From contig NZ_CADIJW010000055.1 in the NCBI RefSeq assembly GCF_902859745.1, positions 1 through 35,192 of the forward strand: 35,192 nucleotides of DNA. Direction: 5' to 3'. Of the stretch, positions 8,452 through 26,932 are shown one piece after another. This stretch comes from Achromobacter dolens (GTDB lineage Bacteria; Pseudomonadota; Gammaproteobacteria; Burkholderiales; Burkholderiaceae_B). Position 1 is the stretch's first letter, and each line of letters opens with the position of its first letter. The notes beneath the pieces are model-generated. The model ran no database searches, was not told the DNA's origin, and saw only the letters and a program-made list of their open reading frames with translations. The translations under genes were made by a program, and so were the position numbers.

Positions 8452-8453
8452 GG

Positions 8454-9461: not shown

Positions 9462-9505
9462 TTGGTGGTTCCGGTTTGGGTTTGAAGGGTCGGGATCGGC
9501 CCGCG

Positions 9506-10369
9506 TTAGCAGTCGGTTTTCACGCGGCCGTCGCCACCGGCCGCCGGCGGACGCTGGGAGAAGTTGCCGGGCGTTTTGTCGAGCTGGGCGCGCAGGTCGG
9601 CCAATTCCTTGGCCGTCGCAGCGTTCTTCTTGAATTCCTCCATCTCGGTCCTGACCTTGGTCACGGCGTCGGCCAGGTCGCCGGTGGTTTTCTTGATCGC
9701 AGCTTCCAGCGCGTTGAAGGCTTGTGTTGCGGCGGCCACGTCAACGGGCGCGGTGGCCACCTGCGGGGGCTGCGGTGCTGCGGCTTGCGACTGGCCCGGC
9801 AGCAGGGAGCGGAAGAAGGCGGCGAACCCTTGCAGGGCCTTGGCGGTTTCGTCGGTGGGCTTGGCGTCTTCGTCGAAGTTCAGGGGCGTTTCCAGCAGGC
9901 TGGAGAACAGGTTTTCCGGCGACTGCTTGCGGCCAGCAAGCGGGTTGGATGCGGGATTCTTGGCGGCGAATTGCAGGATGGAGGTCCCCAGGCTGGCCGG
10001 GCTGTCGGTGACGCCCAGGCCGACCAAGCCGCACTTGCCGGTGCCGGCGAAGTCTTCTTGAAGTTCGATGGACGTATAGATTTTCTGGCGGCCCTTCGTC
10101 ATGGACACCAGCGCGGGAGTGGGGTCGAGCTGCGCTTGCAGCGTGAGCTTGCCTTCATCGTTTTCTTCGGTGCGCACGGCCAGGACATCGCCGTAGGCGC
10201 AGAACGGACTTTCCGGCACGACGCCGCGAATATGTTCCATCCAGATGCGCGCGCCGTACTTCTCGCGGTTGTAGGTCGCCGCGATCTCTTCCAGCCAGGT
10301 GCGCTGGATGTTGCGGCCATCGGTGGTCTGGCCTTCGGTGGCCACGGTAAACCAGCGGTCTTTATTCAT
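9506..10369 (-). CDS. O: Capsid scaffold and maturation protease O (P2 gpO-like)
   Basis: A 287-aa protein matching P2 gpO (284 aa), which is both a head protease (N-terminal half) and an internal scaffold (C-terminal half). A candidate Asp-His-Ser triad sits in family context: Asp17 in TTDGR, His46 in WMEHIRG and Ser100 in IYTSIE. These correspond to Asp19, His48 and Ser107 of P2. The region after about residue 180 is low-complexity and helical (many Ala, Gln, Lys), as expected for the scaffold. The ATG at 10369 (MNKDRWFTVATEG) is the family start. An earlier in-frame start would add 20 unrelated residues. Confidence 0.94.
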   Translation of the reverse strand: MNKDRWFTVATEGQTTDGRNIQRTWLEEIAATYNREKYGARIWMEHIRGVVPESPFCAYGDVLAVRTEENDEGKLTLQAQLDPTPALVSMTKGRQKIYTSIELQEDFAGTGKCGLVGLGVTDSPASLGTSILQFAAKNPASNPLAGRKQSPENLFSSLLETPLNFDEDAKPTDETAKALQGFAAFFRSLLPGQSQAAAPQPPQVATAPVDVAAATQAFNALEAAIKKTTGDLADAVTKVRTEMEEFKKNAATAKELADLRAQLDKTPGNFSQRPPAAGGDGRVKTDC

Positions 10370-10509
10370 AGGGTTTGGCTCGTCGGTGGTGTTCGGGTGT
10401 TGCCATACTGGCCCCCGCTGCCCGGCCACTCAACGGCGCGGCGTTGTGCGCGTGCGATCCAGAAGAGACGGCTTCACGCGCGCGCGGAGAAGCCCGGCAG
10501 GATGGCGGC

Positions 10510-12264: not shown

Positions 12265-13286
12265 AACGAAAAACCAAGGCGGCCAGCGCTGCGCCTGCGC
12301 TCATGCCTGAAAAGGTCGAGGCCTTCACCTTCGGTGACCCGGTGCCGGTGCTTGATCGCCGCGAGATACTGGACTATCTGGAGTGCTGGCGCAATGGACG
12401 CTGGTATGAGCCGCCCGTCAATTTCGGCGGCCTGTCCAAGACGTTCCGGGCCAGCCCGCACCATAGTTCGGCCATCTACTTCAAGGCCAACATCCTGGCC
12501 TCCACGCTGCTGCCGCATCCCGCATTTGGCCGTGATACCTGCCTGAAAATGGCTATCGATTTTCTGACCTTCGGCAACACCTACGCGGAGCGGCTGGACA
12601 GCATGACGGGCAAGCTGATCATGATGAAGCACGCGCTTGCCAAGTACACGCGGCGCGGCGTTGAACCTGGCCGCTTCTTCTTTCTGCCCAGCTCTGGCCA
12701 GGAGCATGAATTCCGCGCCGGCACGGTGTGTCAACTGATGCAGCCGGACATCAACCAGGAAATCTATGGCCTGCCCGAGTACCTGGCCGCGCTCAATGCT
12801 GCATGGTTGAACGAGTCCGCGACGCTGTTCCGGCGCAAGTACTACCACAACGGCAGTCATGCGGGATTCATCATGTACGTGACGGACACCCTGCCTGACG
12901 GTGGCTATGTCGATGACATCCGCGAGGCGATGAAGAACTCGAAGGGGCCGGGCAACTTCCGCAACCTCTTTGTCTATGCGCCCGGCGGCAAGAAAGACGG
13001 CATGCAGATCATCCCGGTTAGCGAGGTGGCCGCGCGCGATGACTTTTTCAACATCAAGAACGTGTCGCGCGATGACGTGCTCGCCGCGCATCGGGTGCCG
13101 CCGCAGCTCATGGGTCTGGTGCCGACGAACTCGGGCGGATTTGGCACGCCGATATCGGCGGCGAAGGTGTTCGCGCGTAACGAGCTGGAGCCGCTGCAGG
13201 CCAAGTTCCTGGAAATCAATGACTGGCTGGGCGATGAGGTTGTGCGTTTTAAGCCTTACGCGATCCCAGGAGAAGGCGACGAGTAG
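12261..13286 (+). CDS. Q: Portal protein Q (P2 gpQ-like)
   Basis: A 341-aa portal vertex protein (P2 gpQ is 344 aa) of the PBSX/P2 portal family. It forms the dodecameric ring through which DNA enters the head. Family stretches include NFGGLSKTFRASPHHSSAIY, FRRKYYHNGSHAGFIMYVTD, and AHRVPPQLMGLVPTNSGGFG. The start at 12261 overlaps the P stop by 4 nt. The gene is followed 22 nt later by a strong terminator hairpin, so P-Q form a two-gene transcript. Confidence 0.96.
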   Translation: MKRKTKAASAAPALMPEKVEAFTFGDPVPVLDRREILDYLECWRNGRWYEPPVNFGGLSKTFRASPHHSSAIYFKANILASTLLPHPAFGRDTCLKMAIDFLTFGNTYAERLDSMTGKLIMMKHALAKYTRRGVEPGRFFFLPSSGQEHEFRAGTVCQLMQPDINQEIYGLPEYLAALNAAWLNESATLFRRKYYHNGSHAGFIMYVTDTLPDGGYVDDIREAMKNSKGPGNFRNLFVYAPGGKKDGMQIIPVSEVAARDDFFNIKNVSRDDVLAAHRVPPQLMGLVPTNSGGFGTPISAAKVFARNELEPLQAKFLEINDWLGDEVVRFKPYAIPGEGDE

Positions 13287-13873: not shown

Positions 13874-15475
13874 TCACTCGATAGCCGACAGCCCCTCGCC
13901 GCCATCTCCCTCCATCAACGAGTGAGCGTGGAGCGTTAAGGCCATGGCTCTTGACGACACGAAGTCCTCGTAAGACAGGGCGTCGATGCCTGTCGGACAC
14001 AGAGCTGATTTTAAATATTGGTCTCGGAACTGCGAGTCTATCTGCGCTACGTAGTCAGCAGGGGCGCGATCTTTAATCTTGTTGTTGTCTGACCGAGTCA
14101 GGAAACAGATGTTGGCGAGGACATTGATGTCAGCCGCTGGGACTCCCTGCTTAAGTAAGAAACTGCGGGGGAATATATGGTGGTACTCATGCTTACTGCC
14201 TTTCTTCAGTACTTTGCTCGTATCAATCTTTGCCCCGCTCAGAAGGGACTTTGGAGACAGGGTGTTCAGCATGAGGATGAGCACGCCAGAATTAGCGTTG
14301 GCGACCGAAAAGTTGCTCGTGGCGAAGCTGAATCGAACCTCAGGCGTGGGGAGTTTCATCTCGTAGTTCTCGTCCCCTTTCAGCTTTCGCAATTCGATGA
14401 TATCGCTAGCTTGCCGCTGGTTCACATCGGAGGAGAATCTACGGGTGAATAGGGCGCGCCAGAACCACTTAAGTAGCTGTGCGCGTTGCTTCGCGGAATA
14501 GTTGAAACCGTCTTTTAGTTCGGTGGCGAAGAACGTGCTGAGGGGCACGAGCAGCCCAGGAAAGGGAAGAATTTTGTAATGGGTGACTCCTACTTCTCGT
14601 TTCAGGAAGTCGAGCGCGCCGATGATTCCTCGCTGGATTTCATCAAAGCGGCGTCTGATTTCTTCGCCCTTCAACTCAAGGATTTTGTCGGGGGTGGTCT
14701 CCCCGCTGATTATCCCCGCACATATTCGCAGTTGGAGGTCTTTGTCATTGCAAAAGTCCTCGAACCCATGCTCCGCAATAGCGTCCTGCAAATCGCTAAA
14801 CTTCTCAACTAGGTCGAAGTCTTCGGACCAGCTCCATGCCGAAAGTAGCTCAAAGACGTTCAGCTCCGTGCCTGCACGGTTGATTCGCTCGAAGACGATT
14901 GCGACCTTGTTCCGATCGTCCGTCTCGAACACTTCATTAGGGATGTGATATTCCTTAAAGCGCTCCTGTAAATCGTCGATGAGCACGAGCTGCTCATCGC
15001 TAAGATCCTTCGTAGCGCGTCGGAATGCACCGATGTCAAAGAGGGTCCGAGCAGGGAAGTGCCGGGAGGGGTCTACCTCTCCATCCTCAAGCGCAACAAA
15101 TGCGGGATCTTGGTGCCCCTCCTGGGCTTGCATGTCAAAGTAGATGTCGGTCCAGGACCCGCCTTCGGGCCTAAGGTCGGTTTGAAAGGTGCTGAACAAG
15201 CTTGTGATTCGCTGCTGGCCGTCAAGGACGTAGTTGACGGGATAGTTTTTCGACGGTTCCGGCAGCGTAAAGCGACCCAGCTTTTTCTCTGTTGGCATGC
15301 GTGTATCTGTGCGCCAGAGAATGATCGTGCCGATTGGAAATTTCTTGTAGATGCTGTCTAGCAAGAACGCAACTTGGTCTGGCTCCCACACGAAATCACG
15401 TTGAAATGCAGGAATACGAATATCTCCCGCAGTGATGCGTTCGATAAGTCGGCGAATCGGTAATGGGTCGCTCAT
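13874..15475 (-). CDS. DUF262/HNH (GmrSD/BrxU-like) putative anti-phage nuclease
   Basis: A 533-aa protein with an N-terminal DUF262 domain: FQRDFVW at 24–30, PIGTIILW at 47–54, the ParB-like DGQQR at 85–89, and VFERINRAGTELN at 193–205. The C-terminal region has HHIFP at 431–435 and N/K residues at 454–465 (NICFLTRSDNNKIKDR), the HNH-type DUF1524-like nuclease site. This single-chain layout is that of type IV restriction enzymes such as GmrSD and BrxU, which use nucleotides and cut modified DNA. The gene looks AT-richer than its neighbours and sits next to Q, where P2 carries old/tin. I infer a prophage-encoded defence function. The ATG at 15475 is preferred over a GTG 14 codons upstream. 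Confidence 0.85.
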   Translation of the reverse strand: MSDPLPIRRLIERITAGDIRIPAFQRDFVWEPDQVAFLLDSIYKKFPIGTIILWRTDTRMPTEKKLGRFTLPEPSKNYPVNYVLDGQQRITSLFSTFQTDLRPEGGSWTDIYFDMQAQEGHQDPAFVALEDGEVDPSRHFPARTLFDIGAFRRATKDLSDEQLVLIDDLQERFKEYHIPNEVFETDDRNKVAIVFERINRAGTELNVFELLSAWSWSEDFDLVEKFSDLQDAIAEHGFEDFCNDKDLQLRICAGIISGETTPDKILELKGEEIRRRFDEIQRGIIGALDFLKREVGVTHYKILPFPGLLVPLSTFFATELKDGFNYSAKQRAQLLKWFWRALFTRRFSSDVNQRQASDIIELRKLKGDENYEMKLPTPEVRFSFATSNFSVANANSGVLILMLNTLSPKSLLSGAKIDTSKVLKKGSKHEYHHIFPRSFLLKQGVPAADINVLANICFLTRSDNNKIKDRAPADYVAQIDSQFRDQYLKSALCPTGIDALSYEDFVSSRAMALTLHAHSLMEGDGGEGLSAIE

Positions 15476-15562
15476 GGGTATCTCGTGTGGTGAAGGTAAC
15501 GAAATAGTACCGCGCACCGTCTGAATCTACTCGGACCCGTTGGGGGGAGTGAATGCAGTTTG

Positions 15563-15874
15563 GGGAGGGGCTGGGAAAAACCTAACCTTCCTAACCGGGC
15601 CTGAAAATGATGCGTAAGGCATTGATTTGCATGAGTAATATTGGTTAGGTTCAAAACCTAACCTGACCTAACCTGAAACCTAACCTCCACGTAAGTGTTT
15701 GATTTACATGCATATCTATTTTTCATAAGGTTAGGGTATAGAAACCTAACCGGGTTAGGCCTTGGTTAGGAAAAGGTTAGGTTTCCCGAAACGTCGGAAA
15801 CCCGCATGAATAAAGGCGATCCGCCCGATTCGCCATGCCAGGTTAGGAAGGTTAGGTTTTTCCCAGCCCCTCCC
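15563..15874. repeat. 34-bp inverted repeat enclosing 13 GGTTAGG motifs
   Basis: The arms 15563–15596 and 15841–15874 are perfect inverted copies. Within and between them the heptamer GGTTAGG occurs seven times (starting at 15643, 15729, 15753, 15764, 15775, 15841, 15850). Its complement CCTAACC occurs six times (15581, 15590, 15657, 15667, 15679, 15745). Many neighbours are 9–12 bp apart, close to one helical turn. The layout resembles an iteron array or multi-site operator. The binding protein is unknown. Confidence 0.9.
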
Positions 15875-15969
15875 GAAATATTGAAATGGCCCTCAGTCGC
15901 GCCGGTTGCTGGTGCGCTTGCCGTCGTCGCTCTGGATCCTCGATCGCGCTCCAGCACCGGCGGGTCCGC

Positions 15970-16250
15970 TGGCCAAGTGCTGGCGCTGCAGGTGGTGGCG
16001 GACGTAGTGAGCAGCGCGCGGCGGCCGCCGGCGGCGCGCTGGGCAGGCGTTGGCGCTGCAGGTCGCGGTGGACGTGGCCAGCAGCTCGCGGCGGCCGGTG
16101 GCAGCGCACTGGCCAGGTGTTGGCGCTGCAGGTGGTGGTGGTGGGTGGTCGGCAGCGCGCGGCGCACGCCGGCGGTGCGCTGGCCTGGCGCCAGTGCTGC
16201 AGGGCGCGGTGATCGACATCTGCAGTTTGCGGCGGTGGCCGATGCGCCTG
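15970..16250. repeat. 70-bp tandem repeat, about four copies
   Basis: Units begin at 15970, 16040, 16110 and 16181. Each starts TGG-C--G-G-TGGCGCTGCAGG or a close variant and contains a CAGC-CGCGGCGG segment. The fourth copy is degenerate. The period is not divisible by three, so a translated frame would rotate from copy to copy, which argues against a coding role. Confidence 0.8.
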
Positions 16251-16545
16251 CCAGCATGTAGCAAACGCGGCGATGTCACGGCGCGGACATACCGCGCTGC
16301 GGGGGATAGAAAAAAACGGGGAAGGGCGGGCCGACGCTACTACTACAAAACTACTACAGCAGATCGCAGAAACCTAGTGTTTATGCGGCTCTCCGGCCTG
16401 TAGGATTCGCCGTTAACTACGGCGAGACGGGCACGCGGGCTTTGCGCTGGAATTGCGCAGGGCCCGCGGGGAGCCTAGTGCCTTGATATTCCAGGGAAAG
16501 ACCAGGGGGGCAAGTGTAACACCATTGGGTCGCTGCAGAAATTTA

Positions 16546-16576
16546 GTGGATTTAATCAACTATATGCCCTATATTT
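16546..16576 (+). promoter_or_regulatory. MarR-type operator and promoter of the crotonase operon
   Basis: GTGGATTTAATCAAC (16546–16560) is a near-palindrome almost identical to two other sites in this cluster. It overlaps a candidate -35 (TGGATT, 16548–16553). A 17-bp spacer leads to a -10 TATATT (16571–16576). A repressor bound here would block the polymerase. Transcription would begin near 16583. Confidence 0.7.
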
Positions 16577-16636
16577 CCTGGCATGGCCGGACGCCGCAAG
16601 CGGCTGGCCCCATACCTAGAACATCCAGGAGCAGGC

Positions 16637-17401
16637 ATGACCCCGACTTTTCACACGATCCTGCTGGACGTGCAGGACCGTGTCGCCACGGTGACGCTGA
16701 ACCGGCCCGATAGCCGCAATGCGCTCAATTCCCTCATGTGCGCCGAACTGGTGCAGGCCATGCAGCACCTGGCGGATGATCCGGATGCGCACGTGGTGCT
16801 GATCGCCGCGGCGGGCGCCGCGTTCTGCGCAGGCGCCGACCTCAAGGAACGCAAGACCATGTCGAACGCCGAGATGACGGCGCGCCGGGTGCAGGGCTTC
16901 GCCGCCTATGCCGCCATCGAGCGCATGCCGCAGCCGGTGATCGCCGTGGTGCAGGGGGCGGCGTTCGGCTCGGGTTGCGAGATCGCCGCGGCCAGCGATT
17001 TCGTGCTGGCCTCGTCCGAGGCGACGTTCTGCTATCCCGAAGTGGGTTGGGGCACCGTCGGCGCCACGCAGCGGTTGCCGCGGGTGGCCGGCGCGCGCAA
17101 GGCCAAGGAACTGCTCTTCACCGGACGTCGTTTCGACGCGGCCGAGGCGCGCGAGATCGGCCTGGTGAACCAGGTGTACGCGCCCGAGGCGCTTGCCGCC
17201 GAAGCCGCGCAGATGGCCGCGGCCATCGCGCGCGCCGCGCCGCTGACGGTCAGGCTGACCAAGCGCAGCATCGACCAGGGGCTGGCGACGACGCGCGAAG
17301 GCGCGATGGCGATCGAGCTGCTGGCGATCGAGGAGAATTTGCGCGGCACCGACTGGAAGCAGGCCATCGCCGGCTTCGGCACGGCGGGAGACAAGGCATG
17401 A
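16637..17401 (+). CDS. Enoyl-CoA hydratase/isomerase family protein (two-Glu crotonase)
   Basis: A 254-aa crotonase-fold enzyme that should hydrate a 2-enoyl-CoA. The CoA/oxyanion loops are AAFCAGADLKE (61–71) and QGAAFGSGCEIAAASDF (106–122). Both catalytic glutamates of true hydratases are present, Glu115 in GCEIA and Glu135 in YPEVGWGTVG. The ATG at 16637 has AGGAG 6 nt upstream. An in-frame ATG at 16583 coincides with the predicted transcription start and would add 18 residues. It is the first gene of an ATGA-coupled operon with an acyl-CoA ligase and an HMG-CoA-lyase homologue. Methylglutaconyl-CoA hydratase-like chemistry would fit, but the substrate is unknown. Confidence 0.9.
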   Translation: MTPTFHTILLDVQDRVATVTLNRPDSRNALNSLMCAELVQAMQHLADDPDAHVVLIAAAGAAFCAGADLKERKTMSNAEMTARRVQGFAAYAAIERMPQPVIAVVQGAAFGSGCEIAAASDFVLASSEATFCYPEVGWGTVGATQRLPRVAGARKAKELLFTGRRFDAAEAREIGLVNQVYAPEALAAEAAQMAAAIARAAPLTVRLTKRSIDQGLATTREGAMAIELLAIEENLRGTDWKQAIAGFGTAGDKA

Positions 17402-19020
17402 TCGGCCCGACAACCCTGTCGCAGGCGCTGGCGCGCCAGGTGGCCGAACGCGGCGCCGCCGAAGCCTTCGTCGCGCCCGGCGAACGCCTCACCTGGGCCG
17501 CGCTGCAGGACGGCGCGCGAGCCATCGCCCGCAGCCTGCATGCGGCCGGCGTGCGCCGTGGCGACCATGTCGGCGTGCTGTTGGGCAATGGCGGCACCTG
17601 GGTGCAGGTGTTCTATGCCTGCGCCATGCTTGGCGCCGTGACGGTGCCGGTCAACACGCGCTTCAAGACCGATGAACTCGCGTTCTGCCTGAAGCAGGCT
17701 GACGTCAAGGTGCTGCTGACGGCGGAGTCGTTCCTGGGCATCGACTTCCTCGACCTGCTCACGCAGGTGGAACCGGCGCTGGACCAGGCGCTGCCGGGCG
17801 CGGCGTTGCCGCTGCTGCGGCAAGTGGTGGTGTTGGGCGAGCGCTGCCCGCGGGGCGCGGGCAGATGGACCGATTTCCTGGGGGCGGGCGAGGCCGTGGA
17901 TGACGCGACGCTGCAGGACCGCATGCGCGCGGTGGCGCCGGACGATGTGCTGCTGATTCAGTACACCTCGGGCACCACGTCGTTTCCCAAGGGCGTGATG
18001 CTGACGCACGCCAACATGCTGACCAATGCCTGGGCCGCCGCGCAGCGCATCGGCGTGCGGCCGGACGACCGCTATTTCAGCATCCGTCCTTACTTCCATG
18101 TGGCCGGGACCACGCTGTCGATCCTGGTCAGCCTGATGAGCGGCTGCTGCCTGCTGACCCTGCCCAAGTTCGACGTGGCCGACGCCTTGCGCATGCTCGA
18201 CGAAGAACGCTGCACCCTGACATCCGGCAACGACACCATCTTTCTCATGCTGATGGGCCATCCCGATTTCGACCGCGCGCGCATCCATCTGCGCGGCGGC
18301 TGGGCGGCGGCCGGCCCGCAGGTGATGCAGAAGATCCGCGACGTGATGGGGGTGCCGGGCATCTGCAATGCCTACGGCCAGTCCGAAGCCTCGCCCAACA
18401 TCACGCTGTCGGCGCACGATGATCCCTTTGAACTGCGCGCCATGGGCTGGGCGCTGCCGCATCCCGGCATGCAGGTGCGGGTGGTGGACCCGGGAACGGG
18501 CGAGCCGCTGCCGGCCGGCATGCAGGGCGAGATCCAGGCGCGCGGCTGGAGCGTGATGAAGGGCTACTACAAGATGCCTGAGGCCACCGCCCGCGCGCTC
18601 AGCGCGGACGGCTGGCTCAGCACGGGCGACCTGGGCGAAATGGACGCGGCGGGCCGGTTGCGCATGGTGGGCCGCCTGAAGGACATGTTCCGCGTGGGCG
18701 GCGAGAACGTCGCGCCGGCGGAGGTGGAAGAGACCCTGCACGGCCACCCCGCCGTGCGCATGGCGCAGGTGGTCGGCGTGCCCGATGCGCGCCTGGGCGA
18801 AGTGCCGGCGGCGTTCGTGCTGCTCAAGGACGGCCAGGACTGCACGGCCGAGGAACTGACGGCCTGGTGCAAGGCGCGCTGCGCCAACTTCAAGGTGCCG
18901 CGCTATGTCGAGATCGTCGACAGCTTCGAGCACATCGGCATGACGGGCAGTTCCAAGGTGCAGAAGAACAAGCTGCGCGCCCATGCGCTGGCGCTGTTCG
19001 GACTGGAGCGACAGGCATGA
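17398..19020 (+). CDS. AMP-dependent acyl-CoA synthetase/ligase
   Basis: A 540-aa ANL-superfamily enzyme that adenylates a carboxylic acid and joins it to CoA. The P-loop YTSGTTSFPKG is at 189–199, the GWLSTGDLG hinge region is at about 405–413, and the C-terminal catalytic lysine is Lys520 in GSSKVQKNKLR. The length is typical of medium-chain or aryl acyl-CoA ligases. It starts inside the stop of the crotonase gene (ATGA) and ends in the same way with the lyase gene, so the three proteins are made together. It is the natural entry step of the pathway. The substrate cannot be told from the sequence. Confidence 0.93.
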   Translation: MIGPTTLSQALARQVAERGAAEAFVAPGERLTWAALQDGARAIARSLHAAGVRRGDHVGVLLGNGGTWVQVFYACAMLGAVTVPVNTRFKTDELAFCLKQADVKVLLTAESFLGIDFLDLLTQVEPALDQALPGAALPLLRQVVVLGERCPRGAGRWTDFLGAGEAVDDATLQDRMRAVAPDDVLLIQYTSGTTSFPKGVMLTHANMLTNAWAAAQRIGVRPDDRYFSIRPYFHVAGTTLSILVSLMSGCCLLTLPKFDVADALRMLDEERCTLTSGNDTIFLMLMGHPDFDRARIHLRGGWAAAGPQVMQKIRDVMGVPGICNAYGQSEASPNITLSAHDDPFELRAMGWALPHPGMQVRVVDPGTGEPLPAGMQGEIQARGWSVMKGYYKMPEATARALSADGWLSTGDLGEMDAAGRLRMVGRLKDMFRVGGENVAPAEVEETLHGHPAVRMAQVVGVPDARLGEVPAAFVLLKDGQDCTAEELTAWCKARCANFKVPRYVEIVDSFEHIGMTGSSKVQKNKLRAHALALFGLERQA

Positions 19021-19967
19021 GCGCGCGCGACGTGGTGCTGTGCGAATGCTTCGCGCGCGATGGGCTGCAGCACGAGCCCGATTTCATCGGCACGGCGGTC
19101 AAGGCCGACCTGATCGACCGTTTCGCGGCGCTGGGCTTTGAACGGATCGAGGCGACCTCGTATTCCAATCCCAAGGTCGTGCCGCAATTCGCCGACGCCA
19201 CCGACCTGCTGGCGGCGCTGCCGCGGCGCGCGGGCGTCTGGTACAAGGCCACCTGCGCCAACGCGCGCGCCGTCGAGCGCGCGCTGGTTGACCTGGATGC
19301 CGGTATCGGCGCCAACGAGATCAGCCTGCTGGTCTCGGCCAGCGAATCGCATTCGACGCGCAACCTGAAGCGCGAACGCGCCGCCCAGTGGGACAACATT
19401 GCCGAGATGGCGCGGCTGGCGAACGGCCGCTTTCGCCTGATCGGCACGATTTCGGTGGCGTTCGGCTGCCCCTTCGAAGGCGCGGTCGACCCCGACGTGG
19501 TGATGGCCGACGTGCGGCGCTTCGCCGCGCTGGGCGTGCGCATCGTCACGCTGGGCGACACCACCGGCATGGCCACGCCCGCCTCGGTGCGCGACCTGTA
19601 TGGCCGGATGGCGCGCGAGGTGCCCGAGGTGACGCCGGTGGCGCATTTCCACGACACGCGGGCCACCGGCCTGGTGAACTACGTGGCCGCGCTGGAGGCG
19701 GGCGTGACGCACTTCGATTGCGCTTTCGGCGGCGTCGGCGGCCATCCGGCCAAGGTGCGCTACGGCGGCGGTCATACCGGCAATGTGGCGACGGAAGACC
19801 TGGTGAATCTGTTCGAGTCCATGGGCGTGCGCACCGGCCTGGATCTGGCGGCGATGGACGCGGTGTCGCGGCATTGCGAGGCGGTGCTGGGGCGCGCGCT
19901 GCACAGCCGCGTGGCGCAAAGCGGCTTGAACCCGCTGCTCGGCATCGCGCGGGAGGCGGCCGCATGA
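19017..19967 (+). CDS. HMG-CoA lyase family protein lacking the catalytic Cys
   Basis: A 316-aa TIM-barrel protein of the HMGL/DRE metallolyase family. Core residues are present: Arg14-Asp15 in ARDGLQHE, Glu45 in IEATSYSNPK, His210/His212/Asp213 in HFHDT as metal ligands, and Asn256 in GNVATEDLV. Genuine HMG-CoA lyases have a catalytic Cys in a mobile loop, GGLGGCPYA. Here the equivalent is GGVGGHPAK, with His243 (codon CAT) instead. The loop also carries an unusual Gly/His-rich segment (RYGGGHTGN). I infer a C–C bond lyase acting on a CoA thioester, possibly with altered chemistry or substrate. It overlaps the ligase by 4 nt. Confidence 0.88.
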   Translation: MSARDVVLCECFARDGLQHEPDFIGTAVKADLIDRFAALGFERIEATSYSNPKVVPQFADATDLLAALPRRAGVWYKATCANARAVERALVDLDAGIGANEISLLVSASESHSTRNLKRERAAQWDNIAEMARLANGRFRLIGTISVAFGCPFEGAVDPDVVMADVRRFAALGVRIVTLGDTTGMATPASVRDLYGRMAREVPEVTPVAHFHDTRATGLVNYVAALEAGVTHFDCAFGGVGGHPAKVRYGGGHTGNVATEDLVNLFESMGVRTGLDLAAMDAVSRHCEAVLGRALHSRVAQSGLNPLLGIAREAAA

Positions 19968-20055
19968 GGACCGCCGAGCGTGTTTGTATATCATGCGGGC
20001 AGCGGCGCGCGACCCGCGCGCACGCCGTTTTTCTCCGCATCTGAAGAGTCCGCCC

Positions 20056-20592
20056 ATGGCCACCCGAACCGCATCCAAGTCAGCCACCGCCGCGCGTCCC
20101 GCACCCCGGGCGTTGAAGGAACTGTTCTCGTACCGCCTGAACCGGCTGGCCTACGTGTCGAGCCGCATCGCCGCCGGCCTGAACGAAAGCCGCTACGGCG
20201 TGGGCCCACGCGAGTGGCGCATCATCGCGCTGCTGGGCGCGGCGCCGGACATGTCGCTGAACGCGGTGGCGCGCGAGGCCAACATCGACAAGAGCCAGGC
20301 CAGCCGCACCGTGTCCGAACTGATCGAGCGCGGCCTGATCCAGCGCAGCGCCGACAGCCAGGACGGCCGAGGCGTGAGCCTGGACCTGACGCGCAACGGC
20401 CGCGCGCTGTACGAGGAGATATTTCCGGCCGCGATCGAGCGCAACGAGGACATGCTGTCGGTGCTGTCGGAGTCCGAGCGCGAGGCCATGGAGCGCATGC
20501 TGGACAAGCTGACGACGCACGCGCTGGAGATGCTGAATGAATGCAAGGCGGAGGTGCCGGCGCGTCGCGGCCGCGGCGTGCAGCCGCGCTGA
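20056..20592 (+). CDS. MarR-family transcriptional regulator
   Basis: A 178-aa winged-helix regulator. The N-terminal helix contains RLNRLAYVSSRIAAGLNES. The recognition helix is at about 78–95 (IDKSQASRTVSELIERGLI), and the wing at about 98–112 contains SADSQDGRGVSLDLT. MarR proteins bind palindromes as dimers and usually release DNA on binding an aromatic or acyl-CoA ligand. The gene lies between the two crotonase operons. GTTGATTTAATCAAC-type sites stand upstream of the first operon, right after this gene before the second, and before the NMO/MFS pair, so it is the obvious regulator. No such site precedes its own start, 88 nt after the lyase stop. Confidence 0.93.
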   Translation: MATRTASKSATAARPAPRALKELFSYRLNRLAYVSSRIAAGLNESRYGVGPREWRIIALLGAAPDMSLNAVAREANIDKSQASRTVSELIERGLIQRSADSQDGRGVSLDLTRNGRALYEEIFPAAIERNEDMLSVLSESEREAMERMLDKLTTHALEMLNECKAEVPARRGRGVQPR

Positions 20593-20630
20593 ACGCCGGG
20601 CGCGAACTCGCGCCTTTTTTTACCTATATT

Positions 20631-20645
20631 GTTGATTTAATCAAT
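20631..20645 (+). promoter_or_regulatory. MarR-type operator upstream of second crotonase
   Basis: GTTGATTTAATCAAT contains a perfect TTGATT-T-AATCAA palindrome (20632–20644) preceded by CTATATT. It lies 37 nt before the start codon of the second crotonase gene and matches the sites at 16546 and 25561. A good -10 in the usual position is not obvious here. Confidence 0.72.
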
Positions 20646-20681
20646 CACTTTGCTTGTCGCCATTGGAAGAGGATATGCGTG

Positions 20682-21416
20682 ATGTCGGAACTGATCATTG
20701 AAGACCTGGATGCGGTGCGGTTGCTGCGCCTGAACCGTCCGGAAAAGCACAACGCGCTGAACACCGCGTTGACCACGGCGCTGCTGGACGCGCTGCGCCA
20801 GGCCGACCGCGACGACGCGGTGCGCGCGGTGGTGCTGACGGGCAATGGCAAGTCGTTCTGCGCGGGCGCCGACACCGGCGAGTTCTCGGCCCTGACGCCG
20901 GAACAGCCGGACGCGGTGCTGCGCCGCGCCGACCTGACGACCGACCTGCACCTGGTGTTCTCGCGCATGGTCAAGCCGGTGATCGGCGCGGTCCATGGCA
21001 ATGCGCTCGGCGGCGGCGCCGGCCTTGCGCTGGCCTGCGACCTGACGGTGATGGCCGAGGACGTGCGCTTCGGCTATCCGGAACTGCGCCACGGCATCGT
21101 GGCCGCGGTGGTCATGGCCAACCTGGTGCGCCAGGTCGGCCGCAAGCATGCCTTCGAGCTGGTGGCGATGGCCGAGCCGATCGATGGCGCGCGCGCATTG
21201 CAACTGGGCATCGCCAATCGCGTCGCGCCCGCCGCGCAGGTGCTGGACCAGGCGCTGGCGATGGCGCGGCGCCTGGCCGGCTGGGAACCGGCCGCGATGG
21301 GGCTGACCAAGCGCGCCTTCCACCGCGCGGCCGACCAGGGGCTCGGCGAGGCGCTGGGCGTGGGCCGCGACGCCAACGTCATCATGCGGGGTTTTCGCCA
21401 GGGAGCGGCGCGATGA
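20682..21416 (+). CDS. Crotonase-family protein (single-Glu type)
   Basis: A 244-aa enoyl-CoA hydratase/isomerase family protein. The oxyanion-hole loops KSFCAGADTGEF (57–68) and HGNALGGGAGLALACD (105–120) are present. The first hydratase Glu is replaced: Gly114 aligns with Glu115 of the other crotonase in this cluster. The second, Glu134 in YPELRHG, is kept. One-Glu crotonases often act as isomerases or on other CoA substrates, so simple hydration is less likely. The ATG at 20682 follows an AAGAGGA sequence. The stop overlaps the CoA-transferase start (ATGA). Confidence 0.88.
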   Translation: MSELIIEDLDAVRLLRLNRPEKHNALNTALTTALLDALRQADRDDAVRAVVLTGNGKSFCAGADTGEFSALTPEQPDAVLRRADLTTDLHLVFSRMVKPVIGAVHGNALGGGAGLALACDLTVMAEDVRFGYPELRHGIVAAVVMANLVRQVGRKHAFELVAMAEPIDGARALQLGIANRVAPAAQVLDQALAMARRLAGWEPAAMGLTKRAFHRAADQGLGEALGVGRDANVIMRGFRQGAAR

Positions 21417-22609
21417 GGCCGCTTGAAGGCGTCACCATCCTGGACCTGTCGCGCGTGCTGGCGTGCCCGTTCGCCTCGATGATCCTGGCCGAGCTGGGCG
21501 CCGAGGTCATCAAGGTCGAGCAGCCCGGCGGCGGCGACGAGACGCGCGGCTTCGAACCCAAGGTGCAAGGCGAGGGCGGCACCGAGTCGGCCTACTACCT
21601 GGCCTTCAACCGCAGCAAGCAGTCGGTCACGGTGAACTTCCGCCACCCCGAGGGGCAGGCGCTGATCCGGCGGCTGGCGCAGACCTGCGACGTGGTGGTC
21701 GAGAACTTCCCGGTCGGCACGCTCGCCAAGTACGGCCTGGACCGCGAGCACATCGCGCCGGACAACCCCGGCCTGATCTATTTCTCGTGCACCGGGTTCG
21801 GCATGACCGGACCGTACGCGCCGCGCAAGGGCTATGACACCGTGTTCCAGGCCATGGGCGGGATCATGAGCCTGACCGGCGAGCGCGGCGGCGGTCCGGT
21901 CAAGCCGGGCCTGCCGGTCAGTGACCTGACCTCGGGCCTGTGGGCCGCCATCGGCATTCTGTCGGCGCTGGTGGGACGGGCGCGTTCGGGGCAGGGCTGC
22001 CATATCGACTTTTCGATGCTGGACGGGCAGGTGGGCCTGCTGTCGCTGGCGGCGGCGCGCTATTTCGCGTTGGGCGAAGTGCCGCCGCGGCTGGGCACGG
22101 AACACCCCGGCCGGGTGCCGTCCGCCGCGTTCGAGTGCGGCGACGGCCGCTGGGTGCAGATCACCGGCAGCGACCAGCACTGGAAGCCGCTGTGCGAGGC
22201 GCTCGACCTGCCGCAGTGGGCCGACGATCCGGAGCTGGCGCGCAACGCCGTGCGCGTGGCGCGCCGCGACGAAGTCATGGCCGGCCTGTCGGCGGCCGCC
22301 GCGCGGCTGACGCGCGACGAACTGTGCCGCCGCTGCGATGCGCGCGGCGTGCCGGCCGGCCCGATCCTGGATGTGGAGGAGATCCTGCACAACGAGCACG
22401 TGCTCGCGCGCGGCATGGTGGCCAGCTACGAGCATCCGTCCATCGGCCGCTTCGGCGCGGTGCCGGTGCCATTCAAGTTCGACGGTTTCGACGATCCGAG
22501 GCTGGAGCGCCCGCCCTTGCTGGGCGAGCACACCGACAGCGTGCTGGCCGGCCGGCTCGGCCTGTCGCCTGCGCAGATCGAGGCGTTACGCGCGCAGGGC
22601 GCGATCTAG
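21413..22609 (+). CDS. CaiB/BaiF family (type III) CoA-transferase
   Basis: A 398-aa class III CoA-transferase, which moves CoA between carboxylates without a free acid intermediate. The N-terminal core has LEGVTILDLSRVLACPFAS and LAELGAEVIKVEQPGGGDE. The catalytic aspartate is Asp171 in GLPVSDLTSGLWAAIG. The C-terminal part includes DARGVPAGPILDVEEILHN. It is translationally coupled to the single-Glu crotonase. In this cluster it offers a second route to CoA activation beside the ATP-dependent ligase, perhaps by recycling CoA from a product. The substrate is unknown. Confidence 0.93.
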   Translation: MRPLEGVTILDLSRVLACPFASMILAELGAEVIKVEQPGGGDETRGFEPKVQGEGGTESAYYLAFNRSKQSVTVNFRHPEGQALIRRLAQTCDVVVENFPVGTLAKYGLDREHIAPDNPGLIYFSCTGFGMTGPYAPRKGYDTVFQAMGGIMSLTGERGGGPVKPGLPVSDLTSGLWAAIGILSALVGRARSGQGCHIDFSMLDGQVGLLSLAAARYFALGEVPPRLGTEHPGRVPSAAFECGDGRWVQITGSDQHWKPLCEALDLPQWADDPELARNAVRVARRDEVMAGLSAAAARLTRDELCRRCDARGVPAGPILDVEEILHNEHVLARGMVASYEHPSIGRFGAVPVPFKFDGFDDPRLERPPLLGEHTDSVLAGRLGLSPAQIEALRAQGAI

Positions 22610-22680
22610 CCATCGGGGCCATGAGCCCCGGGGCCTTTCCCCGCACCACACATAAAACACAATATCCCAGGAGACAAACC

Positions 22681-23652
22681 ATGAAGACTCTGAAGCGCCT
22701 GCTGTGCGGCGCGGCGGTGGCCGGCGCGTTGTGCGCCCCTGCCGTCGCCGCCGATTCCTATCCCTCGCAGCCGATCACGCTGGTCAACCCGTATGCCGCC
22801 GGCGGTCCCGCCGACGTGCTGGGGCGGGCGCTGGCGCGCGAGCTGGAAAAGCAGTTGGGCAAGACCATCATCGTCGAAAACAAGGCCGGCGGCGGCGCGG
22901 CCATTGGCGCCAACTTCGTGGCGCGCGCCAAGCCGGACGGCTACACGCTGCTGCTCGGCACGTCGGCCGCCCACGTGGTGACGCCGCTGATGCAGCAGAC
23001 GCCGTACGACGGCATCAAGGACTTCGCCTTCGTCTCGATCGTCGCCAATCAGCCCAACATGCTGGTGGTGCGGCCCACGCTCAAGGCCGACAGCGTCGAG
23101 CAGTTGATCGCGATGGCGCGCAAGGAACCAGGGCGCATCAACTATGCCTCGGCCGGGCCCGGCAGCTCGCCGCACCTGGGCGCCGAGCTGTTCCGGGAAC
23201 GCGCCGGCGTGGACATCGTCCACATCCCCTACAGCGGCGCGGCGCCCGCCATCAACGATCTGGTCGGCGGGCAGGTGGACATGGCGGTGCTGAACCTGGC
23301 CGCCAGCCTGCAGTTCATCCGCAGCGGCCGGCTCAAGGCGCTGGCCTACGCCAACGACCACCGCTCGCCGCTGCTGCCCGACGTGCCGACGCTGGCCGAA
23401 TCCGGCGTGAAGGGCGCGGAGTCCGCCTCCTGGTACAGCCTGGCCGCGCCCAAGGGCACGCCGCCGGAGGTCCTGCAGCGCCTGAACGACGCGGTGGCCA
23501 AGGTCAACGCCAATCCGGAGTACAGCAAGCTGATGCAGGCGCAGGGGGTGGACCTGTGGAACATGACGCCGCAGGAAGCGACGGCCTTCGTGGAAAAGGA
23601 CCAGGCGGCCATGCGCAAGCTGGTGAAGGCGGCGGGGTTGATGAAGAAATAG
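22681..23652 (+). CDS. Bug-family (TctC-like) periplasmic solute-binding protein
   Basis: A 323-aa secreted binding protein. The N-terminus is a signal peptide (MKTLKRLLCGAAVAGALCAP) with likely cleavage after AVA at about residue 23. Family stretches are YPSQPITLVNPYAAGGPADV, YASAGPGSSPHLGAELF and HIPYSGAAPAINDLVGGQVD. Bug proteins bind small carboxylates for tripartite tricarboxylate transporters and are greatly expanded in Bordetella and relatives. No membrane TctA/B partner is nearby, which is common. An AGGAGACA ribosome-binding site precedes the ATG. It lies 71 nt after the CoA-transferase and probably belongs to that transcript. Confidence 0.95.
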   Translation: MKTLKRLLCGAAVAGALCAPAVAADSYPSQPITLVNPYAAGGPADVLGRALARELEKQLGKTIIVENKAGGGAAIGANFVARAKPDGYTLLLGTSAAHVVTPLMQQTPYDGIKDFAFVSIVANQPNMLVVRPTLKADSVEQLIAMARKEPGRINYASAGPGSSPHLGAELFRERAGVDIVHIPYSGAAPAINDLVGGQVDMAVLNLAASLQFIRSGRLKALAYANDHRSPLLPDVPTLAESGVKGAESASWYSLAAPKGTPPEVLQRLNDAVAKVNANPEYSKLMQAQGVDLWNMTPQEATAFVEKDQAAMRKLVKAAGLMKK

Positions 23653-23756
23653 GACGATTCTGGCTGGGTGCGAGGGCGCTTGGTCGCCCTTGGCTGATCC
23701 TGACGCGCGGGAGAATTCCTGGGCGGCCTCGGCTGCCGGGGGTTGTCCCGCCACTG

Positions 23757-23784
23757 TTAATGTAGTAACGTTACTACACATTAA
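23757..23784. promoter_or_regulatory. Palindromic operator of the toxin–antitoxin pair
   Basis: TGTAGTAACGTTACTACA (23761–23778) is a perfect 18-bp palindrome. The flanks TTAA/TTAA extend the symmetry with small gaps. It lies about 25 nt upstream of the antitoxin start, where Phd-type antitoxins repress their own operon. Confidence 0.8.
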
Positions 23785-23805
23785 GCAAGGATCAAAGGAT
23801 GCGCG

Positions 23806-24060
23806 ATGTCCATCACCACACTTTCCAGCCGCGAACTCAATCAGGACGTGACCAAGGCGAAGAAGGCGGCCCTCAAGGGGCCCGTGTTCATCACGGATCG
23901 AGGCAAGCCGTCCCATGTCCTGCTCGCCATCGAGGACTACTGGCGCCTGGTCGGCAAAAAGCGAAGTATCGTCAGCGCGCTGTCGATGCCCGGCCTTGCC
24001 GACATCGAACTCGATGCTCCCCGCTCACGCGAGCTGCCTCGCCCGGCGGACGTCGCGTGA
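23806..24060 (+). CDS. Phd/YefM-family antitoxin
   Basis: An 84-aa antitoxin. The N-terminal DNA-binding half follows the Phd/YefM pattern, with LSSRELNQDVTKAKKAA and then GPVFITDRGKPSHVLLAIED. The C-terminal part (SMPGLADIELDAPRSR) is the likely toxin-binding tail. It should neutralise the PIN toxin encoded right behind it and repress the operon through the adjacent palindrome. The stop overlaps the toxin start by 1 nt (TGATG). Confidence 0.93.
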   Translation: MSITTLSSRELNQDVTKAKKAALKGPVFITDRGKPSHVLLAIEDYWRLVGKKRSIVSALSMPGLADIELDAPRSRELPRPADVA

Positions 24061-24485
24061 TGTTCCTGCTGGATACCAACGTGCTTTCCGAACTGCGCAA
24101 GGTGGGCGACGGCAAGGCCGACAAGAACGTGACCGCCTGGCTCTCGGATGAGGATGCGGCGAATTTCTACGTTTCCGCGATAACGCTCATGGAGCTGGAG
24201 ATCGGCATTCTGCGCATGGAACGACGCGATGTCGGGCAAGGCGCGCGGTTGCGCGAGTGGATGCGTGATCGCGTCCTGCCGGAGTTCTCCGACAGGACGC
24301 TGCCGCTCGATGGGGCGGTGGCATTGCGCTGCGCCAGGTTGCACGTGCCGGATATGCGTCCCGAGCGGGATGCGTTCATTGCCGCCACCGCCCTGGTGCA
24401 CGGCATGACGCTGGTCACCCGGAACGTGTCTGATTTTTCGGGTTGTGGCGTGGTCATCGTCAATCCCTGGGAAGCCGGCGCGTGA
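24060..24485 (+). CDS. PIN-domain (VapC/FitB-like) toxin ribonuclease
   Basis: A 141-aa PIN-domain RNase. The acidic metal site is complete: Asp5 in LLDTNVLSE, Glu45 in LMELEIG, Asp104 in ERDAFIAATA and Asp125 in RNVSDF. VapC-type toxins cleave tRNA or rRNA and stop translation when freed from antitoxin. The spacing and length are standard, so the module looks functional. It sits between the Bug gene and the convergent nitronate monooxygenase gene, interrupting an otherwise co-regulated catabolic set. Confidence 0.94.
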   Translation: MFLLDTNVLSELRKVGDGKADKNVTAWLSDEDAANFYVSAITLMELEIGILRMERRDVGQGARLREWMRDRVLPEFSDRTLPLDGAVALRCARLHVPDMRPERDAFIAATALVHGMTLVTRNVSDFSGCGVVIVNPWEAGA

Positions 24486-24566
24486 ATCGCGCCGCCGCCC
24501 GGGCGATACCGGGGCAGGGCTGAAACCGCGGCGACCTTCGTGCGGATGTGGGGCTCGATCCGCGCT

Positions 24567-25520
24567 TCACTCCGCCAGCAGCGCCGCGCGCCTGAGCGCT
24601 TCGCGCGTTTGCGCCACCAGTTGCTCGACCACCGCGCCCGCCGGCTGCAGGCTGTCGATCAGGCCCGCGCTCTGGCCGGCCTCGACCTTGCCGCCCTGCA
24701 CGTCGCCGTCGAAGGCGGCCTGCTTCAAGGAACTGCCGGCGAACAGGGTCTCCAGCATGGCCTGATCGCCGCCGTGTTCGGCCGCGAGATAGTCGCGGGC
24801 GAAGGCGTTGCGCAACATTCTCACCGGCGAACGGCCGCGTCCCACCAGCGTGGTGTCGGCCACGCCCGCCGCCAGCACCGCGTCCTTGTAAGCGTCGCAT
24901 ACGCCCGCCTCCGGCGTCAGCAGGAAGCGCGTGCCCAGTTGCGCGCCGGCCGCGCCCAGGCATAGCGCGGCCGCGATGCCGGCGCCGTCGGCAATGCCGC
25001 CGGCCGCCACCACCGGCACCGACACGCGTCGCACCACCGCGCGCAGCAACACCTGCAAGCCGATCTCGTCGGGGCCTGGGTGGCCACCGGCTTCCAGGCC
25101 GACCGCGATCACCGCGTCCACGCCGGCCGCTTCGGCCTTGGCGGCATGCTCCGGACTGGCGATCACCTGCAGCCATTTTGCGCCAGCGTCGCGCGCGCGC
25201 CCAATGTGTTTCTGGGGGCCGCCCTGCGAGGCGATGATGACCGGCACGCCTTCGGCCAGGGCGATGTCCATGTGTTCCTGCGCCCGCTTGTTGTAGAGCG
25301 GGATGTTGACGGCGTAAGGCGCGTCGGTGCCGGCGCGAACCGCGCGGATGGCGGCCCGCAGCGCCTCGGGATACATGGGGCCGGCGGCGATCACGCCGAG
25401 CCCGCCGGCGCGCGATACGGCCAGCGCCAGCGCCGCGTTCGACGAGGCCCAGCTCATGCCGCCCTGGATGATCGGATAGCGCGTGCCCAGCAGGCGGGTC
25501 AGCGGAGTTTGCAGAGTCAT
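24567..25520 (-). CDS. Nitronate monooxygenase / NPD-family flavoprotein
   Basis: A 317-aa FMN-dependent TIM-barrel protein of the 2-nitropropane dioxygenase family. The N-terminus has the typical YPIIQGGMSWAS motif. The FMN and catalytic region contains VGLEAGGHPGPDEIGLQVLL with His147, then VPVVAAGGIADGAGIAAALC and GAAGAQLGTRFLLT. Members oxidise alkyl nitronates, such as propionate-3-nitronate, or act as enoyl reductases (FabK). It is read divergently from the MFS gene. A MarR-type palindrome overlaps its candidate -35 (minus strand 25574–25569), with CAGAAT 17 bp further at 25551–25546. Its link to the CoA pathway is by regulation only. Confidence 0.9.
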   Translation of the reverse strand: MTLQTPLTRLLGTRYPIIQGGMSWASSNAALALAVSRAGGLGVIAAGPMYPEALRAAIRAVRAGTDAPYAVNIPLYNKRAQEHMDIALAEGVPVIIASQGGPQKHIGRARDAGAKWLQVIASPEHAAKAEAAGVDAVIAVGLEAGGHPGPDEIGLQVLLRAVVRRVSVPVVAAGGIADGAGIAAALCLGAAGAQLGTRFLLTPEAGVCDAYKDAVLAAGVADTTLVGRGRSPVRMLRNAFARDYLAAEHGGDQAMLETLFAGSSLKQAAFDGDVQGGKVEAGQSAGLIDSLQPAGAVVEQLVAQTREALRRAALLAE

Positions 25521-25560
25521 GGCTGATCAGGATGGGGAAAATCCCATTCTGAAAGAATTG

Positions 25561-25575
25561 GTTGATAAAATCAAC
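25561..25575. promoter_or_regulatory. MarR-type operator between NMO and MFS genes
   Basis: GTTGATAAAATCAAC is a palindrome (GTTGAT / ATCAAC arms) followed by TATATTG. It matches the sites at 16546 and 20631. It lies 40 nt from the nitronate monooxygenase start and 157 nt from the MFS start, in the divergent promoter region. Confidence 0.75.
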
Positions 25576-25732
25576 TATATTGTTGGGCGCGGCGCGCGCC
25601 GTGGCGACATACGCGATGCGGCGACACGGGTATTGCGGGCGGCTCCGGGTTATTTGTTTATGATGTGCGCGTCTGGCCCACGGCCAGGCCGTCCCGAGGA
25701 GGGGGCGCCTTTCTCCATCAATAAGAACAATC

Positions 25733-26932
25733 ATGTCGAGCACTACCGATACGCGTTACGTGCGCACCGTCATCCTGGGTACCCTGGTGGTGCTGCTGGC
25801 CATGGGCGTGCGCGCCACCTTCGGCCTGTTCATGCAGCCGATGGGCCTGGCGCACGGCTGGAGCCGCGAAGTGTTTTCCATGGCCTTCGCGCTGCAGAAC
25901 CTGGTCTGGGGCGTGGCCTGCATTTTCATGGGCATATTGGCCGACCGTTATGGCTCCGGCCGCACCATCGCGCTGGGCGCGCTGCTGTACATGCTGGGCA
26001 TGATCGGCACCCGCTTCGCCACCGACGAAACCACGCTCTACCTGAGCGCCGGCCTGCTGGTCGGCCTGGGCCAGGCCGGCACCACGTTCCCGGTGATCCT
26101 GCCGGTGGTGGCGCGTGCCGTGCCGCCCGCCTATCGCAGCACCGCCATGGGCATCGCCAGCGCCGGCGGCTCGCTCGGCCAGTTCGCGGTGGTGCCGACC
26201 GGGCAGGCGCTGATTACCGGCCTGGACTGGCCGGGCGCGTTGTGGGTGCTGTCGCTGTTCGTCGCTTGCGCGGCGCCGCTGGCCTATTTCCTGCGCGGCC
26301 GTCCGCAGGCCCACGGCGGGCCGCAGCAATCGCTGACGGCGGCGGTGCGCCAGGCGGTGCGGCATCCGTCGTTCCATTTCCTGTTCTGGAGCTATTTCGT
26401 CTGCGGCTTCCACACGGCCTTCATCACGCTGCACCTGCCGGCCTACGTCACCGACGGCGGGCTGACGCCGGGGCAGGGCGCCACCGCGATCGCGCTGATC
26501 GGGCTGTTCAACGTGCTGGGGTCGTTCTACGCCGGCAAGCTTGGCGGCCAGTACAGCAAGAAGCGCCTGCTGGCGGTGGTCTACGGCATGCGCGCCTTCG
26601 GCATCCTGCTGCTGTTGTGGCTGCCGCTGTCGCCATGGGTGCTGTACGCGTTCGCGGCCTGGATGGGGCTGTTCTGGCTGGGCACGGTGCCGCTGACGCA
26701 GGGGCTGATCGGCCAGATCTATGGCCTGCGTTATGCCGCGACCCTGTCGGGCATCGTCTTTTTGGGACACCAGGTTGGCAGTTTCATCGGCGTCTGGCTG
26801 GGCGGTTATGCCTATGCCAAGACCGGCAACTACGACCTGGTCTGGTGGCTGGGCGTGGCGCTGGCGGTGGCCGCCGCGCTGCTGTGCCTGCCGGTGCGCG
26901 AGCAGCCGCTGGCGCAGCCGGCGACTGCCTGA
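25733..26932 (+). CDS. MFS transporter
   Basis: A 399-aa major facilitator with about 12 hydrophobic segments. The first helix contains VILGTLVVLLAMGVRATFGL, followed by FMQPMGLAHGWSREVFSMAF. The loop between helices 2 and 3 reads GILADRYGSGRTIALGALL, the MFS motif A region. The second half includes YAGKLGGQYSKKRLL. The overall look is that of monocarboxylate/oxalate-formate-type carriers. Being divergent from the nitronate monooxygenase with a shared operator, it is the probable uptake or export system of the regulon. The substrate is unknown. Confidence 0.9.
   Translation: MSSTTDTRYVRTVILGTLVVLLAMGVRATFGLFMQPMGLAHGWSREVFSMAFALQNLVWGVACIFMGILADRYGSGRTIALGALLYMLGMIGTRFATDETTLYLSAGLLVGLGQAGTTFPVILPVVARAVPPAYRSTAMGIASAGGSLGQFAVVPTGQALITGLDWPGALWVLSLFVACAAPLAYFLRGRPQAHGGPQQSLTAAVRQAVRHPSFHFLFWSYFVCGFHTAFITLHLPAYVTDGGLTPGQGATAIALIGLFNVLGSFYAGKLGGQYSKKRLLAVVYGMRAFGILLLLWLPLSPWVLYAFAAWMGLFWLGTVPLTQGLIGQIYGLRYAATLSGIVFLGHQVGSFIGVWLGGYAYAKTGNYDLVWWLGVALAVAAALLCLPVREQPLAQPATA

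Follow-up and report, generated by a model that had tools for sequence, protein, structure and literature searches.

Three conserved dyads and a predicted local MarR regulon in a CoA-thioester gene cluster of Achromobacter

The gene cluster and its upstream dyads

We analysed a 35,192-nucleotide stretch of Achromobacter dolens DNA (hereafter the window), which is contig C55 (NZ_CADIJW010000055.1) of a 6.29-Mb genome and carries a cluster of CoA-thioester genes, a gene for a MarR family protein and three short palindromes (dyads) that we regard as its putative operators. In the first row of genes, ech1 (16637..17401, + strand), encoding a crotonase-family enoyl-CoA hydratase/isomerase (PF00378, 2.3e-50), is followed on the same strand by lig (17398..19020), encoding an AMP-forming acyl-CoA ligase (PF00501, 1.9e-82), hmgl (19017..19967), whose product is HMG-CoA-lyase-like (PF00682, 9.5e-35; PDB alignment), and marR (20056..20592), the gene of the proposed regulator, a protein of 178 amino acids with Pfam MarR domains. 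In the second row, also on the + strand, ech2 (20682..21416; crotonase family, PF00378, 1.2e-51) precedes coat (21413..22609; class III CoA-transferase, PF02515, 1.4e-117; PDB 9br6, 2.5e-89) and bug (22681..23652; TctC-type periplasmic binding protein, PF03401, 3.1e-80). The reverse strand carries nmo (24567..25520), encoding an NMO-family (nitronate monooxygenase) flavoenzyme (PF03060, 7.1e-59; PDB 5gvh, 6.4e-69).

The three dyads, 15 bp each, stand before ech1, ech2 and nmo. Putative operator 1, GTGGATTTAATCAAC (16546..16560), lies 76 bp upstream of the ech1 start codon and overlaps a -35-like TGGATT; operator 2, GTTGATTTAATCAAT (20631..20645), lies 36 bp upstream of the ech2 start codon, and operator 3, GTTGATTTTATCAAC as read on the nmo strand (25561..25575), 40 bp upstream of that of nmo. 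A first-pass annotation of this DNA had combined these palindromes into one MarR regulon, and all three were located exactly where it had placed them. When the window was scanned with GTTGATTTAATCAAC at up to three mismatches, six strand matches were obtained, i.e., the three dyads on both strands, versus 0.15 expected, and none of 100 shuffles reached six. The looser pattern TTGATTNNATCAA, at up to two mismatches, gave 13 strand matches versus 1.84 expected, one of which is an additional one-mismatch match at 14634-14646, within a GmrSD-type gene. In the genome-wide search that the first-pass annotation had called for, GTTGATTWAATCAAC occurred at up to one mismatch in only three places of the whole genome, all of them at the three promoters of the window. 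At up to two mismatches five places were found (one for the reversed control), the two additional ones being C2:189704 and C30:37107.

In all three upstream alignments, comprising 21 Achromobacter sequences each, the 15 columns of the dyad rank highest for conservation (first of 115 windows for ech1, of 75 for ech2 and of 95 for nmo), with a mean identity of 0.98, 0.96 and 0.95, respectively, versus 0.62, 0.70 and 0.57 in the flanks. Alignment A1 was made without locus L121, which has a stop within its translation. The distance between the nmo dyad and the nmo start codon is 40–42 bp in all 21 Achromobacter loci.

Two of the dyads had also been described as overlapping a -35 hexamer with a 17-bp spacer to a -10. 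This is correct as to position: site 1 reads TGGATT-17-TATATT (16547-16552 and 16570-16575, + strand; TATATT, TATAGT or TAAAGT in relatives) and site 3 reads TTGATT-17-CAGAAT (25574-25569 and 25551-25546, - strand; AGAAT or AAAAT kept in relatives). The hexamers themselves are weak, and a stricter promoter scan of 15400-26300 returned no promoters, with 0.9 expected by shuffling. The arrangement reappears in the ech1 upstream alignment and, among the rows listed, in that of nmo. Downstream of marR, a hairpin scan revealed a terminator-like hairpin with a T-run (20598..20615, + strand), which we take to set ech2 apart as a unit of its own. A hairpin-like stretch with a T-run at this place reappears in the alignment of 21 sequences; the terminator scan overall gave three sites versus 6.8 in shuffles, so this hairpin is weak by itself.

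Occurrence of the dyads together with MarR

The comparison was based on 43 Achromobacter genomes, 29 of them within a 250-genome sample of the family. MarR orthologues were called at E<1e-80 in the set of 29 and at E≤1e-40 in that of 43, NMO orthologues at E≤1e-60 in the latter. The closest named relatives by MarR identity are A. ruhlandii (98%) and A. pulmonis (96%). In the search beyond the family, at E≤1e-30, the protein was detected in 3 of 349 genomes of the order (including the window genome and one genome of the same genus), so the comparison is limited to one family.

Sites with at most one mismatch are present in every one of the 15 MarR-bearing genomes of the 29-genome set (one to three each) and in none of the 14 genomes without MarR. 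All 38 of these sites fall in the cluster. A wider regulon reached through the dyad was considered and rejected, as at this stringency no site outside the cluster was found in the 15 cluster-bearing genomes. At up to two mismatches, extra-cluster sites, counted as total sites less the 62 cluster sites, amount to about 2.2 per genome both with the cluster (47 in 21) and without it (49 in 22). In turn, the core motif (A/G)T(T/G/A)GA-N5-TC(A/C/T)A(C/T), sought up to 200 bp upstream of each gene in 20 Achromobacter loci (G240 was excluded, its cluster being spread over two contigs), fills 60 of 60 slots before ech1, ech2 and nmo and 0 of 100 before lig, hmgl, marR, coat and bug.

The gene order is nmo-ech2-coat-bug-ech1-lig-hmgl-marR at seven loci from other lineages, except for G063, where marR is divergent from nmo with one dyad between the two and hmgl was not found. 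The nmo products of these nmo-first loci are 53–58% identical to that of the window. The core stands before nmo in six of the seven, the remaining locus having its best dyad, TTTGATTTTATCAAC, 96 bp upstream of nmo; before ech1, ech2, lig, hmgl, coat and bug, which are internal in this order, it fills 0 of 41 slots. Comparison thus supports a tie of the flavoenzyme gene to the CoA genes, since NMO is found in just those 21 of the 43 genomes that have MarR, the dyad keeps its distance of 40–42 bp from nmo, and nmo heads the row in the rearranged loci.

We determined that the marR product belongs to the MarR family by PF12802 (52.0 bits; cut-off 27) and PF01047 (40.5 bits; cut-off 24.6). Its AlphaFold model, built from 19 sequences, has a mean pLDDT of 70 and a pTM of 0.60, and MarR structures are its top structural matches; the PDB entry of the MarR family regulator CouR was not among the 50 rows listed in searches with this model, which proves nothing. 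Near constant among relatives is NIDKSQASR, where a predicted helix (79-91) starts. MarR had been called the only regulator present. Among the 30 window ORFs of the Pfam scan, some of which are alternative frames over the same DNA, this holds with one exception, a Phd-type antitoxin (23806-24060). We know of no role for this MarR protein of Achromobacter, Bordetella-like and Pigmentiphaga genomes.

Neighbouring genes and an element shared by marR and the MFS gene

According to the first-pass annotation, the dyad before nmo also controls the MFS transporter gene on its other side, which would place a flavoenzyme and two transport proteins in the CoA pathway. This possibility is very unlikely in our view. 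It is favoured by the position of the dyad, which in the window genome is 157 bp from the MFS start codon; 11 of the 21 genomes with the cluster have dyad and MFS gene within about 220 bp of each other. Yet, an MFS orthologue (at least 88% identity) is present in all 43 genus genomes and the cluster in 21, and the MFS gene lies about 5 kb from the nmo dyad in five cluster genomes and elsewhere in the genome in another five; wherever the two are apart, the dyad accompanies nmo. We examined 24 MFS loci without an adjoining cluster (the cluster-less genomes G137, G257 and G260, three of 22, were excluded), and in all 24 the dyad was absent at up to two mismatches and the MFS gene adjoined the same nuclease gene with a PDDEXK domain as in the window, which we take to be AddB. 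The MFS gene has a conserved promoter-like element of its own, TTGTTTATGATG (25654..25665, + strand), 78 bp downstream of the operator 3 dyad. Under a strict pattern, 36 of 40 loci have a TTGTATATGATG-type element 56–104 bp upstream of the MFS start, and this element stands between the dyad and the gene. The MFS gene was therefore rejected as a regulon member: all 43 genomes have it, in 10 of the 21 with the cluster it is unlinked to nmo or about 5 kb off, and it is provided with its own element. What stands of the original proposal, as judged by comparison, is one MarR protein, three predicted operators, and a tie of both NMO and Bug to the CoA genes, so that one transport protein is included instead of two.

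The MFS leader (25650-25732) contains a hairpin-like GTCCC-GAGGA-GGGGAC or similar, recurring in Achromobacter, over a Shine-Dalgarno-like GAGGAGG. As a candidate for a known RNA family the leader was rejected, as no Rfam match at E≤1 was found in 25500-25800.

The marR gene has a conserved promoter-like element, TTGTATATCATG (19984..19995, + strand), 60 bp upstream of its start and with no dyad. Either TATATCAT or TATATGAT is found 22–62 bp before marR in all 21 Achromobacter sequences, the 22-bp distance coming from a relative with a shifted aligned start, and the same pattern is present in four of five Bordetella-like sequences, the fifth having TTGTTTATGATG. The exact TTGTATATSATG upstream of marR is the sole copy in the genome. 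The exact 12-mer TTGTWTATSATG has two genome copies, one before marR and one before the MFS gene, and across the 43 genomes 58 of its 65 exact matches, assigned by coordinates, lie at marR (21 of 21) or at the MFS gene (37 of 43), versus one match for the reversed control. Both genes have it in all five Achromobacter genomes where they are unlinked. In the Bordetella-like genome G141, the exact 15-mer TTGTWTATSATGTGC is present, among the matches listed, at marR and at the MFS gene, 140 kb apart.

A two-layered control may be imagined on this basis, in which MarR and the dyads would act at the three catabolic promoters, and marR and the MFS gene would be served by a second factor, or by a promoter type, of which TTGTWTATSATG is the mark. 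If so, there would be a link between the MFS gene and the regulator, though not via the dyad. We hold this to be unlikely, if worth bearing in mind. The TTGTWTATSATG pattern was written after both promoters had been seen, and at up to one mismatch it gives 31 matches in the window's own genome versus eight for the control. Copies or near copies stand before three other genes, which we take to be argD-like, NYN-domain-like and LysR-type, and these suggest a strong type of -10 rather than an operator. We treat this shared element as a lead and not as a finding.

Other features surround the cluster. Between bug and nmo lies a Phd/PIN-domain toxin-antitoxin pair (23806-24485), to which the above antitoxin belongs; among the mapped genus genomes, a PIN gene at the same place is otherwise found only in G214, G222, G252 and G263. 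Between the GmrSD-type gene (13874-15517) and the cluster there is a 45-nt inverted repeat (15559-15878, 93%) with AACCTAACC/GGTTAGGTT repeats, and just left of the cluster four imperfect GC-rich repeats at a spacing of 70–71 bp (15934-16235). Further to the left, P2-like prophage genes (tail fibre, baseplate, muramidase, holin, terminase, capsid and portal) occupy 118-13286.

Proposed regulation, its alternatives and the pathway

We consider it likely that MarR is a local repressor of the three promoters, acting via the dyads and released by a CoA thioester of the pathway. A MarR dimer would bind (A/G)T(T/G)GA-N5-TCAA(C/T) at the promoters of ech1-lig-hmgl(-marR), ech2-coat-bug and nmo. At ech1 and nmo, whose -35-like hexamers are overlapped by the dyad, the bound protein would shut out RNA polymerase; at ech2 the operator would be occupied directly past the terminator-like hairpin, near the gene start. 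Release would be brought about by a CoA thioester that either the ligase or the CoA-transferase produces, and it is consistent with this, if circumstantial, that both genes lie inside the proposed regulon. Being the fourth gene in the ech1 row, marR is probably controlled in part by its own product, but in addition to read-through from ech1 it has its conserved, dyad-free promoter-like element.

The closest parallel is CouR of Rhodococcus jostii RHA1, as described in PMC4737184. It is a MarR-type repressor of CoA-ester catabolism, its box cATTGA-N5-TCAATg overlaps -35 boxes, and it is released by p-coumaroyl-CoA. Both the half-site and the 5-bp spacing equal those of GTTGA-N5-TCAAC in our dyads, and the CouR regulon is also small, with four promoters to the three found here (PMC4737184). 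The TTGA-N5-TCAA spacing is kept at all three dyads, one half-site of site 1 being GTGGA, and two of the three overlap a -35-like hexamer. With these likenesses, our best guess is that a CoA thioester relieves repression. In contrast to the CouR system, the present genes have no assignment to hydroxycinnamate breakdown and include an NMO-family flavoenzyme, and marR is in line with the first operon, the CouR arrangement being divergent in the cited account. BadR of Aromatoleum sp. CIB and R. palustris is, according to PMC9795900, another MarR-type repressor with an operator over predicted -35 boxes, and that of Aromatoleum responds to cyclohexanecarboxyl-CoA; its operator, CAA-N4-TTG, differs in having the half-sites arranged oppositely. 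A review (PMC5487221) was retrieved alongside these MarR papers.

Several observations weigh against repression of all three promoters by MarR. No good -35/-10 pair is present at ech2, and the core motif also occurs once within the bug gene of the window, at 23209. The co-occurrence counts partly reflect gain and loss of the whole cluster, i.e., shared ancestry rather than independent events. Outside Achromobacter the motif is less regular. In five Bordetella-like loci, the strict core stands before ech1 in 5/5, before ech2 in 0/5 and before nmo in 1/5, with weaker matches in all 15 slots that were equalled by none of 200 single-base shuffles; the matrix used was built from Achromobacter sites and includes the 'ech2' row of L094, a cross-hit on ech1 that was not counted as a site and gives the ech1 site slight extra weight. 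Nine Pigmentiphaga loci (L071, at a contig end, was excluded from the core-motif scan) have the core before ech2 in 9/9 and before ech1 and nmo in 0/9 each, and another crotonase gene upstream of nmo. In G049 it stands before ech2 and coat, elsewhere an internal gene, and before neither ech1 nor nmo, and a dyad with a 17-bp spaced TATATT precedes an upstream signal-peptide-like gene.

In four of the five Bordetella-like loci (L065, L067, L068 and L069) we also observed a divergent bug-CoA-transferase pair beside ech1, with an extra dyad ATTGAT...TCAAC and then GTTGATTTATGCAAC-like copies. Genome G139 (L070:9519-12480) encodes a further MarR, 62% identical, close to a bug/CoA-transferase pair whose bug gene is preceded by GTTGATATTATCAAC and GTGGATTTCGACAAC.

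A challenge to repression comes from BhbR2 of Pigmentiphaga kullae H8, a MarR-family protein of the same bacterial family, which, as reported in PMC12016517, binds TTGATT-N5-AATCAA half-sites over the -35 and is an activator. The same MarR on the same sites might thus activate its operons or switch between both modes, and the weak -35 hexamers at the window dyads fit such behaviour. BhbR2 differs in that it serves bromohydroxybenzoate genes and its spacing is 4 bp wider, the spacing found here being that of the CouR repressor box, and in G168-type loci 17 bp separate the end of the ech2 site from the start codon, a short distance for an activator site of the usual kind; we therefore rate activation as rather improbable. 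Still less probable is that another regulator binds the dyads and marR is merely a neighbour. The drift of the motif in Pigmentiphaga loci, despite a MarR 60–68% identical to that of the window, would agree with this, but the co-occurrence of sites and marR, the rearranged loci, the match of TTGA-N5-TCAA to a published MarR-type box (PMC4737184) and the scanned ORFs, with no further regulator except the antitoxin, argue for MarR. AT-rich intergenic DNA commonly holds short AT-rich palindromes, so that chance, or palindromes acting at the RNA level without any regulator, had to be considered. With all three ≤1-mismatch places of the 6.29 Mb within 9 kb, and dyads conserved above their flanks in 21 genomes, we regard this as extremely unlikely.

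As for the pathway that the proposed MarR repressor would control, the nearest PDB relatives of the CoA-transferase and the lyase are succinate-hydroxymethylglutarate CoA-transferase (SUGCT, 9br6) and HMG-CoA lyase (6nds), respectively, hinting at C5–C6 dicarboxyl-CoA compounds. The likeness has its limits for the CoA-transferase, which scores 330.4 bits, under the NCBIfam cut-off of 750. For the lyase, the score and the cut-off of PRK05692 (HMG-CoA lyase) are both printed as 246 bits. The G-loop Cys of HMG-CoA lyase has a catalytic role, and its absence from hmgl speaks otherwise: the sequence is GGVGGHP versus GGLGGCP in 6nds, with a His and an insertion at the Cys place, in all 43 sequences examined, including that of the window. 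The nmo product scores 200.3 bits against PF03060 (cut-off 28) and retains EAGGH in 43/43 sequences, the His of which is presumably the catalytic His of the family. Its nearest PDB relatives are FabK-type enoyl-ACP reductases (5gvh), and it stays under the FabK equivalog cut-off (TIGR03151, 282.7 vs. 453.1 bits). The NMO family has a catalytic His and, as stated in PMC8626469, also includes FabX, an acyl-ACP dehydrogenase. Given this kinship, the nmo product might well carry out acyl-thioester redox chemistry instead of oxidising nitronates. A literature search on this gene combination yielded no description among the titles and abstract beginnings listed, and among matches to the three exact 13-mers no MarR paper was found by title.

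The switch proposed here, over the genes of an acid-breakdown pathway, is of an ordinary bacterial kind. Our comparison also demonstrates how a false regulon member only 157 bp from an operator can be removed with the help of genomes whose cluster lies elsewhere. For the MarR protein of Achromobacter, Bordetella-like and Pigmentiphaga genomes it provides a well-supported operator and a predicted regulon, and it connects a CoA-thioester pathway with an NMO/FabK-type flavoenzyme.

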